From Aureibaculum flavum (GTDB lineage: Bacteria > Bacteroidota > Bacteroidia > Flavobacteriales > Flavobacteriaceae): DNA of 64,000 nucleotides. Positions 30,927-56,298 of the stretch are shown here, piece by piece (the stretch's first letter is position 1; each line of letters opens with the position of its first letter). Both the position numbers and the translations under genes were made by a program. The stretch spans positions 1-64,000 of the forward strand of contig NZ_JAEHFJ010000004.1 of NCBI RefSeq assembly GCF_016406085.1, written 5' to 3'. The notes beneath the pieces are model-generated. The model was not told where the DNA came from. It saw only the letters and a list, made by a program, of their open reading frames with translations, and searched no databases.

Positions 30927-31740
30927 GGATTACGCCTCGTTCCTCGTCGTAAATTTTTATAAAGAAAGATATTAAATTTTAGATTGTGAGAATTCACAGG
31001 ATTACGCCTCGTTTCTCTTGGTGATTCTTATGGAGTGTTTTATTTAAATAAAAAAAAATAAAACTTTAGATAATGGAAATAAACAGGATTACTCCTCGTT
31101 CCTTGATGTGATCGTTGATTAATTTTATATAGTAAAATTCAGTTAATAAATAGGATTACGCCTCGTTCCTCGTCGTTATCATTATGGAGTGTTGTTATAT
31201 AGAAAGATATAAAATTTTAGATATTGAGAATAAACAGGATTACTCCTCGTTCCTCGTCGTGATCGTTGATTAATTTTATATAGTAAAATTCAGTTAATAA
31301 ATAAACAGGATTACTCCTCGTTCCTCGTCGTGATCGTTATGGAGTGTTTTTATAAAGAAAGTTATTAAATTTTAGATAGAGAGAGTATGGCAGGATTACT
31401 CCTCGTTCCTCGTCGTGATCCTGTGATGGGGTTTCATATAAAGAGATTATAAATTTTAGATAGTGAGAATAATCAGGATTACTCCTCGTTCCTCGTCGTG
31501 ATCGTTGATTAATTTTATATAGTAAAATTTAGTTAATAAACAGGATTACGCCTCGTTCCTCGTCGTGATCCTTATGGAGTGTTTTTATAAAGAAAGTTAT
31601 TAAATTTTAGATAGTGAGAATAAACAGGATTACTCCTCGTTCCTCGTCATGATCCTGTGATGGGGTTTCATATAAAGAGATTATAAATTTTAGAAAGTGA
31701 GAATAAACAGGATTACGCCTCGTTCCTCGTCGTGATCCTG
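30927..31740. repeat. Eleven-copy higher-order imperfect palindromic repeat array
   Basis: A core of about 28 bp (GGATTAC, then CCTCGTTCCTCGTCG, then TGATC) recurs at 30927, 30999, 31086, 31153, 31237, 31318, 31393, 31476, 31543, 31627 and 31710. Copies with a G form a stem of GGATTACG with CGTGATCC. Between cores lie three spacer types: A (TTGATTAATTTTATATAG), B (TTATGGAGTG...) and C (TGTGATGGGGTTTCATATAA). The order is B B A B A B C A B C C, so the block A-B-C of 31237-31475 is repeated at 31476-31709. Not coding. Spacing is 67-87 bp. Confidence 0.9.
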
Positions 31741-31768
31741 TGATGGGGTTGTTGCTCATTAAAAGCCT

Positions 31769-52181: not shown

Positions 52182-54371
52182 TTACTGTTTGATTATCTTT
52201 TCGTAATGAACTGAATGGTCAGAATTACTTGTAATTTTAGTGAAATATACACCTTTATTTAGGTTCATTAAGCTTAATGTAATAGTATTGGTTTGTTGTT
52301 CTATGTTCTTGTTATATATCAGTTTACCTGTAGAAGTGAATATGTCAATTTGAAAAGTATCAGCGTTTTCTTGTTGTAGTGTAATTTCATTGTCAAATGG
52401 AATAGGGAAGAGGCTCCATTCATTGTTGCTGTCACCACTGTTAATGTCCTCTCCGTTAAAATACTTGACTGCTAAATTAAAAGTTTCAATGCCAATTTTC
52501 TCTCCTATTTTCCGCCCTCTTATATCGTCAATTGGTGGATGAATTCCTCCCCAGATTCGTGATAAACTTGTTTGATCTGAGGCATCTCTATAGGTTGCCC
52601 ATTGTAAGGTTAAGTCCTGCGTGGGACCTTGTTCAAAAACGAGAAAGTCATTTTGCTTGATATCAAAAATTCCCATTCCTCCAGGAAAATATTCATTTCC
52701 GGTAAGTAGAGTCATTACTTCAGCAGCCGCTCTAGAAAAGGTAGAATGTCCAGAAACATAGCCTGCAAAAGGTGGCGTCACAAAGGTACCACGTTGATAT
52801 GGCCACCAATGCGTTCCTAGAATCCAATCGACACCAGCAACATCAGTTTCAGGATTGTCAATAAAGTCGGGACCTTTCCAAGCATATATTTTTATTTTAC
52901 CTACATTTTCATTGTTGGTTCCTGCCAAGGCATCACCAACTTCAATAACAGCGGTTAATCCGTCTACCAAAGGAATACCATGGGCATTGTAACTCGGTAA
53001 TTCTTTATCGGTACTTTGTCCTTTACTGGCCATATATCGAATGGCAGAAATAGGGCGTACATAATCGTAATATCCTTTTATTCCCCACGTGTTCACCGCA
53101 CAATCATGCATGGCACCGCCTAGCATTACATACGATTTCACATCCCATTCTAAATCGCTCATTAGAGCACCTTCGCCACCTAATCTTTTTTCAAGTGATG
53201 GATGGTCGTTTACATAATTTAAGATGGTAAACCAATGTCCCGGAGGTGTCTCTGAATCAGGACCATCTGCCCAAAACTCAGCCAACACACGTGCGTAATC
53301 AGATCTTTTTACCAATTGTGGAGCGTACGGTAGGTTAGTAACAGGGTTTAATGCATGACCGGTACCTGAATCTCCACCATCCGTAAAATCGTAAAAGGAT
53401 TTATAGGCAACAAAGGTATCTTCAAAATTTTCAATATCTGCATTGCCTATGGCAGCAGGTGAAATGTCAATTAATGTGTTGTCAGTCGGGTCTAAATGTG
53501 CAGACCAAGCAGCAACCAATAAAAAGTTCCATTTATAGGCATCATCAATTCCGTCTTCATTTGAATTTTTAATGTAAGGTGGTGGCCCCGGGTTATTATA
53601 TACATAACTATTAAAGTTATGGTTTAACACCTTAAGATCCTTTTGTTGTAATGAAAATGGCGTTACTTGACCCCATTCAGGACCTAGAAAATCAGGTGTT
53701 TTAGAATTGGAAACATTCCCACTTTGATCTATAAATACATCAAAGGCGAGGGGTTGCCAACGGTTGGGATCGATATCAATGTTTTCGGTATAGGTGTTTA
53801 GTTGTATGGGTGTATTTACAGGTTGATAAAACTGATTGTCAAAATTATTGGCTTCATTAGACCCGTCTTGCAAACCAAAAGCAATCATTTCTGCTCCTAA
53901 ATAATTACCTAAAGCGGCATAAGAACCGGTACTATAATCAGTTGCTGTAAAATTAGCGTCATAGCCATAAGAAATGAAAAGGTCTAAAAAGGATTTTTTA
54001 GTGGTGCTGACCAAAGGTGAATTTTGAAATCTATGGTTTAATAGCCTAAATAAGGCGTAACTCATCACTTCGTGAACGGCAGTTTCCGTATTGTCAGCTT
54101 GTTGAATGCCGTTAAAAATAGAGGTGTAGTTGCCTAATTTTTTTCCTAGTAATACCGTTTCTGCTTCATCATTAAAAATAGCCCAAGCATCATACATAAC
54201 CACGGAACTATGAAAAAGGTTACGGGCATGTGATGTTGGTCTAGCCACGTCATTACGGATGGCATCTAGTAATTGCTCATTCCAATCTCTAGCTACAGAA
54301 TGTTGACCAAAACTTGAAAGTATAGTACATGAACTAATTATAAGAAAAATGATGTTTTTTCTTGAAATCAT
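52182..54371 (-). CDS. Vanadium-dependent haloperoxidase-like PAP2 protein with type A sorting domain
   Basis: A 729-residue secreted protein (signal peptide about 1-22). The PAP2/haloperoxidase core is at about 510-625: WPYQRGTFVTPP, SGHSTFS with His542 and RIWGGIHPPIDD with His611, the vanadate-binding His. The last 80 residues (WSLFPIPFDNEITLQQ, IFTSTGKLIYN, LNKGVYFTKI) are a type IX type A sorting domain. It could oxidise halides or act as a phosphatase; the sequence alone cannot tell. Right next to the repeat array. Confidence 0.9.
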   Translation of the reverse strand: MISRKNIIFLIISSCTILSSFGQHSVARDWNEQLLDAIRNDVARPTSHARNLFHSSVVMYDAWAIFNDEAETVLLGKKLGNYTSIFNGIQQADNTETAVHEVMSYALFRLLNHRFQNSPLVSTTKKSFLDLFISYGYDANFTATDYSTGSYAALGNYLGAEMIAFGLQDGSNEANNFDNQFYQPVNTPIQLNTYTENIDIDPNRWQPLAFDVFIDQSGNVSNSKTPDFLGPEWGQVTPFSLQQKDLKVLNHNFNSYVYNNPGPPPYIKNSNEDGIDDAYKWNFLLVAAWSAHLDPTDNTLIDISPAAIGNADIENFEDTFVAYKSFYDFTDGGDSGTGHALNPVTNLPYAPQLVKRSDYARVLAEFWADGPDSETPPGHWFTILNYVNDHPSLEKRLGGEGALMSDLEWDVKSYVMLGGAMHDCAVNTWGIKGYYDYVRPISAIRYMASKGQSTDKELPSYNAHGIPLVDGLTAVIEVGDALAGTNNENVGKIKIYAWKGPDFIDNPETDVAGVDWILGTHWWPYQRGTFVTPPFAGYVSGHSTFSRAAAEVMTLLTGNEYFPGGMGIFDIKQNDFLVFEQGPTQDLTLQWATYRDASDQTSLSRIWGGIHPPIDDIRGRKIGEKIGIETFNLAVKYFNGEDINSGDSNNEWSLFPIPFDNEITLQQENADTFQIDIFTSTGKLIYNKNIEQQTNTITLSLMNLNKGVYFTKITSNSDHSVHYEKIIKQ

Positions 54372-54454
54372 TGGTTAGTTAAAATAATAGTGATCATTAT
54401 CTCTTTTATTAACGTAGAGATTGGAAATTTATTTGTTGTGATTTTCATTAAGCA

Positions 54455-54917
54455 GTTCTCGATACTCCTGAAGCGTCGGGATTCATTCTTCAAGATCACT
54501 CGAACGGACGGTATCATTTAACTTTTTATTGAACGTCACTTCGAGTGGTTATAGTAAAGTGATAACTTTACTATAAATGTATCGAGAAGCAATTGGTTTG
54601 TAAATCTTAACTCGAATTAGACAGTTCTCGATACTATCTTTCGTTCCTCAAGATCACTCGAATGGACGTTGAAGTTTGAATTCTAGTTACAATTATAAAT
54701 TATACGTCTCTTCGAGTGTTTTTAATAATGCGGTAGCATATTGAAAAATGTATCGAGAAGCGTTTATCACGTTACTTAAAAGTTCTCGATACTATCTTTC
54801 ATTCTTCAAGATCACTCGAACGGACGGATAGGTTTAACTTTTAAGTAACAAACATATATTGTACGTCACTTCGAGTGTTTTTAATTTGCGACAGTAAAGT
54901 AAAAATGTATCGAGAAG
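54455..54917. repeat. Palindromic repeat array, left part (units 1-3)
   Basis: Units run 54455-54589, 54624-54760 and 54782-54917. Each opens with GTTCTCGATAC and closes with GTATCGAGAA, with CACTCGAACGGACG pairing imperfectly with CGTC..TTCGAGTG inside. Unit 1 also contains the ATAGTAAAGT/ACTTTACTAT hairpin; units 2 and 3 have a divergent right arm (TCGAGTGTTTTTAAT). They lie between the haloperoxidase and GIY-YIG genes. Confidence 0.9.
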
Positions 54918-54994
54918 TAATTTCAATATCAATAGACCAAACGGTTAGGGACGGAAAGGTTTTATTTTTAAATAATTATACCTAGTTTTACTAA

Positions 54995-55285
54995 ATGCAA
55001 CTTTCTTTTGTTTACATATTAAAATGTAATGATGATTCTTACTATACTGGAGTAACTTCGGATTTGACCAAAAGAATATTTCAACATGAAAATGGTATTT
55101 TTAAAGGCAGTTATACTTACCAAAGACGTCCAGTAGTTTTAGTGTTTTATGCAGAATTTACCGATATTAACTTAGCTATAGTTACTGAAAAGCAAATTAA
55201 AAAATGGTCAAGAGCGAAAAAAGAAGCGTTGATAAATGATGAATATGATTTGCTTCCTAATCTGGCTAAGAAGAAATTTAAGTAA
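54995..55285 (+). CDS. Small GIY-YIG nuclease embedded in the repeat array
   Basis: A 96-residue stand-alone GIY-YIG domain of the UPF0213/YhbQ type. VYILKCNDDSYYTGVTSDLTKRIFQHENG carries the GIY/YIG strands (YTG), Arg and His, and IVTEKQIKKWSRAKKEALI holds the catalytic Glu and basic helix. It is the only gene inside a 1.84-kb palindromic array, and unit 4 begins 2 bp after its stop codon. It could nick or cut DNA at these repeats, which would make it a REP/RAYT-like partner with a different fold. No signal or other domain. Function inferred. Confidence 0.9.
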   Translation: MQLSFVYILKCNDDSYYTGVTSDLTKRIFQHENGIFKGSYTYQRRPVVLVFYAEFTDINLAIVTEKQIKKWSRAKKEALINDEYDLLPNLAKKKFK

Positions 55286-55287
55286 GA

Positions 55288-56298
55288 GTTCTCGATAATA
55301 TCTTTCGGTCCTCAAGATCACTCGAACGGACGATATCATTTAACTTTTTAGTGAACGTCACTTCGAGTGGTTAAAGTAAAGTGATAACTTTACTATAAAT
55401 GTATCGAGAAGCAAGTGGTTTGTATATCTTAACTCGAATTGGACAGTTCTCGATAATATCTTTCGTTCCTCAAGATCACTCGAACGGACGGATAAGTTTT
55501 AGTTAGAATCATTAATTTAACGTCACTTCGAGTGGTTATAGTAAAGTGATAACTTTACTATAAATGTATCGAGAAGCAAGTGGTTTATATCTTAACTCCT
55601 ATTAGACAGTTCTCGATAATATCTTTCGTTCCTCAAGATCACTCGAACGGACGGATAAGTTTTAGTTAGAATCATTAATTTATCGTCACTTCGAGTGGTT
55701 ATAGTAAAGTGATAACTTTACTATAAATGTATCGAGAAGCAAGTGGTTTGTATATCTTAACTCGAAATGGATAGTTCTCGATACTCCCGAAGCGTCGGGA
55801 TTCGTCCCTCAAGATCACTCGAACGGACGATATCATTTAACTTTTTAGTGAACGTCACTTCGAGTGGTTATAGTAAAGTGATAACTTTACTATAAATGTA
55901 TCGAGAAGCAAGTGATTTGTATATCTTAACTCGAATTGAATAGTTCTCGATACTCCCGAAGCGTCGGGATTCGTCCCTCAAGATCACTCGAACGGACGTT
56001 AATATTTAACTTTTTAGTGAACGTCTCTTCGAGTGTTTTTAATTTGCGATAGCAAAGTAAACCCCGAAGTGTCGGGAGTATCGAGAAGTAAGTGGCTTGG
56101 TATATCTTAACTCGAATTGGACAGTTCTCGATACTCCCAAAGCGTCGGGATTCGTCCCTCAAGATCACTCGAACGGACGGGAAGGACTTGTTTCTATAGA
56201 TGTAATTATGAAAGGGACGTCACTTCGAGTGGTTATAGTAAAGTGATAACTTTACTATAAATGTATCGAGAAGCAATTATTTAAACAGTTCTCGATAC
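55288..56298. repeat. Palindromic repeat array, right part (units 4-9 plus a half unit)
   Basis: Units: 55288-55411, 55446-55576, 55609-55739, 55774-55908, 55943-56088, 56124-56273 and a left arm only at 56288-56298. Lengths are 124-150 bp. Outer stem GTTCTCGATA/TATCGAGAA; stem two CACTCGAACGGACG against CGTCACTTCGAGTG (12 of 14 pair); hairpin ATAGTAAAGTGATAACTTTACTAT; in units 7-9 an extra hairpin of CCCGA..TCGGG type. In unit 8 the right arm carries GTCGGGAGTATCGAGAA, extending the outer stem to about 16 bp. Spacers of about 33 bp also repeat. Confidence 0.9.

Follow-up and report, generated by a model that had tools for sequence, protein, structure and literature searches.

A small stand-alone GIY-YIG nuclease gene and the GTC-tagged hairpin repeats around it quite probably form one cognate system with a REPtron-like layout, and the array seen here was most likely expanded by local duplication. 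In a REPtron, the gene of a RAYT, a Y1/HUH tyrosine transposase, is bracketed by inverted GTAG-tagged REPs, and inverted pairs without a gene are dispersed over the genome. The case for a comparable pairing here is built on observed co-occurrence, close bracketing, clade-repeat specificity, stem covariation, purifying selection and one presence/absence difference, from which we infer binding, cleavage and mobilisation of the repeats. The recurrence of the pairing in the genome sequences of many bacteria suggests that the enzyme recognises, and perhaps spreads, the repeats.

The array lies in a 64,000-nt stretch of DNA from a genus of Flavobacteriaceae, called the window here, to whose positions the coordinates of units and gene refer; the genome that the window comes from is G000. 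As the initial annotation had described, nine units (re-measured as 125-151 bp) and one half unit surround a single intact GIY-YIG gene, which is the sole credible gene in the array; an 80-aa GTG ORF on the minus strand (55926-56168) falls entirely within the repeats. The units, to which no strand is assigned, occupy 54454-54589 (unit 1), 54623-54760 (unit 2), 54781-54917 (unit 3), 55287-55411 (unit 4), 55445-55576 (unit 5), 55608-55739 (unit 6), 55773-55908 (unit 7, the query of the DNA searches), 55942-56088 (unit 8) and 56123-56273 (unit 9), and they are followed on the plus strand by the half unit at 56287-56297, which is the left outer box only (family D6). From unit 1 onwards each is an inverted pair of half-units (TTCTCGATAC, variable middle, CACTCGAAnnGAC) with the GAC/GTC ends turned towards each other on the two sides of a variable centre. 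The gene is bracketed upstream by the right half of unit 3, at a distance of 78 bp from its start codon, and downstream by the left half of unit 4; the gene's stop codon ends at 55285, so that unit 4 does begin directly behind it, as had been claimed.

Successive left ends of the units are 158-181 bp apart, with one exception of 506 bp where the gene intervenes, and Tandem Repeats Finder (TRF) scores the array at 897 and 712. Because unit and spacer recur at a nearly constant period, local tandem duplication of both is the most likely way in which the array expanded, rather than direct production by transposition. The related genomes G001 and G002 share the site, together with the gene next to it (window 52182-54371, protein 88% identical), and the site holds nine complete units in G000, five in G001 and four in G002. 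Two further tandem repeats occur in the window: GGATTACTCCTCGTTCCTCGTCGTGATC-type repeats at 30998-31750, near two tRNA genes and with no GIY-YIG gene, which may be a degenerate REP sequence, and a 228-bp repeat in 6.2 copies at 1-1403, which probably corresponds to repeated domains of a large protein. An Rfam search of the window returned two tRNAs and nothing else.

The gene (54995-55285, plus strand) encodes 96 amino acids, and in a profile search its product matches PF01541 alone (E 1.4e-15). GIY-YIG domains are recognised by conserved residues, namely a Tyr, a Tyr-x-Gly, an Arg and a Glu, and the corresponding Y7, Y17, G19, R27 and E65 are invariant among 31 sequences, which places the protein in this superfamily. 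An AlphaFold model (pLDDT 86) has the GIY-YIG fold, with UPF0213 and Slx1 as the nearest solved structures. PADLOC and PHROGs gave no match to the protein, and its NCBIfam matches are weak and all below the curated cut-off. The gene is under purifying selection, as judged from codon comparisons with its relatives (dN/dS 0.075 against G001 and 0.088 against G002; the value of 0.36 between G001 and G002 comes from five changes only). A GIY-YIG match is present in 16 of the 17 genomes of the genus, and the five closest proteins (66-100% identical, its own included) all lie within the repeat family of the array.

The half-unit follows the pattern GTC-n-NTTCGAGTG-hairpin-GTATCGAGAA-n. Among 154 distinct half-units the base before the GTC tag is C in 86 and T in 63, so that 149 end in CGTC or TGTC. 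In the same set, N2 (after the GTC tag) pairs with n2 (beyond GTATCGAGAA) in 92% of cases, compared with 43 +/- 4% after permutation, and these pairs are split almost evenly between G-C (72) and C-G (64); pairing at N1 is no better than permutation (24% against 29%). When the arms were left free, in 190 elements, the stem positions paired at frequencies of 0.91, 0.96, 0.99 and 0.97, against 0.41, 0.87, 0.98 and 0.94 for permuted arms, with compensated changes even at the usually fixed TTC of the stem. The predicted stem is thus supported by compensatory changes. Inward of it, GA stands opposite GA, which may form sheared tandem G-A pairs, followed by a G-C pair. The middle of the half-unit is a hairpin of variable sequence, with a mean stem of 5.4 compared with 2.8 in permuted sequences (135 middles) and only a modest excess at individual positions. 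Folded as DNA, two copies from the window far surpass their shuffles (z -4.4 and -4.2).

The initial annotation had proposed a REP-like system that uses a GIY-YIG nuclease, and had named repeats equally common in genomes lacking the gene as an outcome that would speak against it. Across the family this is not what is found. Of 299 family genomes, 121 contain the strict half-unit pattern, as do 105 of 236 genera, while a reversed control pattern occurs in none of the 299. Forty-eight genomes score at least 110 bits in a family-wide search with the protein and are taken to carry its clade, clade A; the half-unit is present in 45 of these and in 76 of the 251 others (Fisher p 3e-17). Copy number, which was also to be compared with the presence of the gene, has a median of 8.5 half-units in genomes with the clade-A protein and 0 in the rest. 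The three clade-A genomes lacking the pattern hold a diverged copy (G047), a type-B-like repeat (G306) and remnants only (G288). Within the genus, the search with a whole unit matched six of 17 genomes: G000, G001 and G002 strongly, G004 and G006 with one weak match each, and G008 in short fragments.

Of the 121 genomes that carry the repeat, 76 lack a clade-A protein above the 110-bit cut, and the gene is therefore not needed for the repeat to persist. Among the 16 repeat-richest genomes lacking this protein in intact form, G177 alone holds clear pieces of the clade (fragments 70% and 62% identical); in four others (G142, G191, G218, G275) the matches contain stop codons, are 33-46% identical and may belong to other clades, and G086 and G297, both repeat-rich, have no match to the gene at all. 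The fragments in G177 fit a later loss of the gene in that genome, and leave the other repeat-rich genomes unexplained.

The same genomes bear on the idea that a RAYT or another Y1 transposase moves the repeats, which would then be ordinary REPs, with the GIY-YIG gene as a bystander. A Y1 match is present in 28 of the 66 genomes with at least five repeat copies, and G000 has one, a partial Y1_Tnp match at C27:319588, outside the window, which is its only one at E <= 1e-5. The other 38 copy-rich genomes are without Y1, however, the tag is GTC and not GTAG, and the Y1 domain is not associated with the repeat (49/105 against 72/194, p 0.11). On these counts a RAYT was rejected as the mover and we hold this reading to be highly improbable; the earlier wording, that a GIY-YIG nuclease acts in place of a RAYT, fits the counts.

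The position of the repeats relative to the gene points in the same direction as co-occurrence. Thirty-four clade-A loci were chosen by protein similarity, namely the best-scoring matches of 29 genomes and the five genus loci, and they contain 36 genes, one of them a fragment. A half-unit lies within 25 bp of the stop codon in 30 of the 36 (25 of those with GTC outward) and within 150 bp upstream in 32 (again 25 outward), so that genes of this subgroup are not normally far from such repeats, the other outcome that would have told against the proposal. The nuclease gene is accordingly bracketed by inverted repeats, as in a REPtron. Dispersed pairs comprise 8 outward, 5 inward and 4 same-direction pairs, and the gene occupies the place of the 15-40 bp spacer found in the outward ones. 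Together with the co-occurrence, this bracketing supports a REP-like system with a GIY-YIG nuclease. The 34 loci represent 25 distinct gene neighbourhoods, which is no proof of mobility since gene order drifts between genera anyway.

A chance arrangement, in which a common small gene sits in repeat-rich intergenic DNA and the repeats are terminators or mRNA stabilisers, would agree with the good folding of the window copies and with the fact that neighbour genes in these loci sometimes touch repeats too (13/83 on the stop side within 25 bp, 21/83 upstream within 150 bp). It is at odds with the close bracketing at the stop codon and with the clade specificity of the repeats described below. In the genus, moreover, repeated flanks are found at 25 of 47 GIY-YIG genes but at 6 of 251 control genes. 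Control genes, here and in the other comparisons, were taken from loci fetched around GIY-YIG genes, so some of them have the repeats in common with those genes; coding sequence is also more frequent in their flanks. We regard coincidence as the least credible of all the readings; a regulatory role of the repeats on top of the association with the gene is possible.

The repeat differs between clades of the enzyme. The type-A repeat, that of the window, flanks 30 of 33 proteins at least 60% identical to the window protein and none of 151 other GIY-YIG proteins, even though 26 gene entries among these others derive from 16 genomes picked as type-A-rich; 112 of the 151 have other GTC-tagged repeats. 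Of 37 proteins at 45-60% identity, 20 carry type B, GTC-n-NNNN-GAGCGCAGTCGA-N'N'N'N' or near it, and of 114 proteins below 45% identity, 64 carry a GTCATTCC-type repeat, labelled D, a loose pattern that would match some flanks by chance, and 34 have no recognised repeat (41 of all 184 distinct proteins have none). The 4-bp stem of type B pairs in 80-93% of cases compared with 26-50% after permutation (55 elements); type C gave no covariation signal in 10 elements, and type E is represented by one element only. As single type-B and type-C hairpins fold no better than shuffles, the type-B structure rests on covariation and that of type C is unsupported. In three loci with type-B genes (L198, L104, L193) the repeat downstream of the gene reaches into its 3' end, and the last residues of the protein are encoded by repeat sequence, for example GLDYARPDIEE in L104. 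A tree of 180 proteins is poorly resolved, with stars on 24 of 177 branches; mapping the repeat labels onto it takes 13 changes among the labelled rows, and whichever label is considered, none of 500 shuffles is as clustered. Repeat type follows protein clade, and repeats and enzyme thus appear to evolve together.

The pairing extends beyond the family. In a multi-phylum set consisting of the best 80 of at least 453 confirmed loci, 43 of 73 genes have inverted-repeat flanks (score >=30), compared with 6 of 239 controls, and 38 of 77 genes have a GTC-outward hairpin at each end, compared with 3 of 260 controls. One locus of these best 80 (L270) comes from a Micavibrio aeruginosavorus assembly, a species listed as a CGTC-1 host by Di Nocera et al. 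(PMC3733652). We tentatively raise the wider idea, to which we give somewhat less than an even chance, that GIY-YIG nucleases could supply the mobilising activity that is missing for the GTC-tagged REP superfamily as a whole, with one hairpin type per clade; genes between inverted half-repeats would be the autonomous elements, dispersed pairs their miniature derivatives, and the whole a second class of REPtron over many phyla.

Two other functions of the nuclease have to be weighed against this background. In a role like that of the Ssn proteins, the nuclease would act on single-stranded DNA entering the cell, cut it at the cognate repeat and so tune natural transformation, the repeats spreading by recombination and uptake with no mobile element involved. 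The small single-domain protein, the purifying selection on its gene and the many members of the wider set with GTCATTCC-type repeats at both ends would suit such a role, which does not require the close inverted bracketing by half-units or the gene-in-spacer layout; we think it rather unlikely, and less so than the other rivals. Alternatively, the gene could be a homing parasite that inserts by cutting between the halves of gene-less pairs whose repeats are of independent origin. That it replaces the spacer of dispersed outward pairs would be expected of such a parasite, but repeat type tracks protein clade, and at the 110-bit cut two gene copies are present in only four of the 48 clade-A genomes (G029, G163, G259, G284) and one in the others, set against the median of 8.5 half-units. 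Homing is improbable on this evidence.

Traces of mobility were sought at sites shared with close relatives. One dispersed outward pair (G000:C1:567948-568073) sits in a 198-bp stretch for which G001 and G002 have no counterpart; in G004, a more distant relative, the matching region is free of half-units, so a gain in the G000 lineage is the simplest reading. The stretch is not a clean footprint of transposition: it is 28 and 44 bp longer than the element, and the matches on either side of it have an overlap of no more than 7 nt. Three more candidates for an empty site are not clean either: L047, where about 1 kb is replaced relative to relatives; L179, which is present with the element in G002 and has unmatched flanks in G001; and L048 3091-3358, a gene-less type-A pair whose intergenic site in G001 and G002 holds a GIY-YIG gene of another clade (G001:C1:2486438-2486943). 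At G000:C1:565253-566202 (L042 1754-2703) the repeat family forms a separate array that lacks a GIY-YIG gene and has four complete units and the left half of a fifth; the corresponding site holds two complete units in G001 and a single one in G002. A different GIY-YIG gene, which lies downstream of tRNA-Phe, has undergone tandem duplication along with part of the tRNA 3' end, into which a palindrome is inserted; there are two copies at G000:C20:187539-188329 (L041 1540-2330) and four, at 377-bp steps, at G001:C1:4923866-4925212. The one-mismatch matches to TTCTCGATAC beside these copies belong to that gene's own 3' end and are not the array repeat.

For the cognate system that we favour, a sequence of steps can be proposed. 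The 96-aa protein would recognise the half-unit as a folded single strand, composed of the GTC tag, one free base, a 4-bp stem (N-TTC with GAA-n), the GA/GA internal loop and a closing G-C pair, to which clade A would add the variable hairpin, and would probably nick the DNA so folded. The dispersed form would be two inverted half-units, GTC outward, around a spacer of 15-40 bp, and the gene-bearing form the same outward pair around the nuclease gene, corresponding to REPIN and REPtron. Pairs may spread through ends made by the nuclease and their repair, and the array in the window would then have been lengthened by local duplication of unit and spacer. With covariation-backed DNA structures for two repeat types, the question of the enzyme becomes a simple cleavage assay, and if the proposal is true, the clades would offer many natural enzyme/substrate pairs for structure-specific cutting of single-stranded DNA.

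The pairing shares with RAYT/REP systems the nuclease gene between inverted repeats and the dispersed inverted pairs without a gene, but its enzyme is GIY-YIG rather than Y1/HUH and its tag GTC rather than GTAG, so that it is not a RAYT system despite the REPtron layout. UPF0213 and Slx1 resemble the window protein in fold and, distantly, in sequence; Slx1 works with Slx4, whereas the window gene is associated with a repeat, an association that we do not know of for UPF0213. The Ssn nucleases of Neisseria, reported in Nat Commun in 2025, are reportedly small GIY-YIG proteins specific for single strands, with a cognate multi-copy genomic repeat and site-specific cleavage restricted to single-stranded DNA. 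The two have in common a small single-domain GIY-YIG protein with a multi-copy repeat of its own, and the general pairing of GIY-YIG gene and repeat may already have been reported for Ssn; the class-D GTCATTCC-type repeats look similar to the Neisseria dRS3 repeat. The clade in the window, known here from sequence alone, differs in its two-box repeat and in the nine units around the gene.

The CGTC-tagged REPs stand closest on the side of the repeats. According to Di Nocera et al. 2013 (PMC3733652), they are short palindromes with a terminal CGTC or TGTC, often in inverted pairs, from five phyla including Bacteroidetes, with stems of 8-9 bp and loops of 4-5 nt, and are said to lack a dedicated transposase. 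The half-units of the window are alike in their CGTC/TGTC ends and inverted pairs, and unlike in their 4-bp stem, GA/GA internal loop, large variable hairpin and linked GIY-YIG gene; pairs of CGTC-tagged REPs have their tags mainly outward, and of the dispersed pairs counted here 8 are outward, 5 inward and 4 same-direction. For repeats so widespread and, on that 2013 account, apparently without a dedicated transposase, the clade-wise pairing supplies a concrete candidate enzyme.
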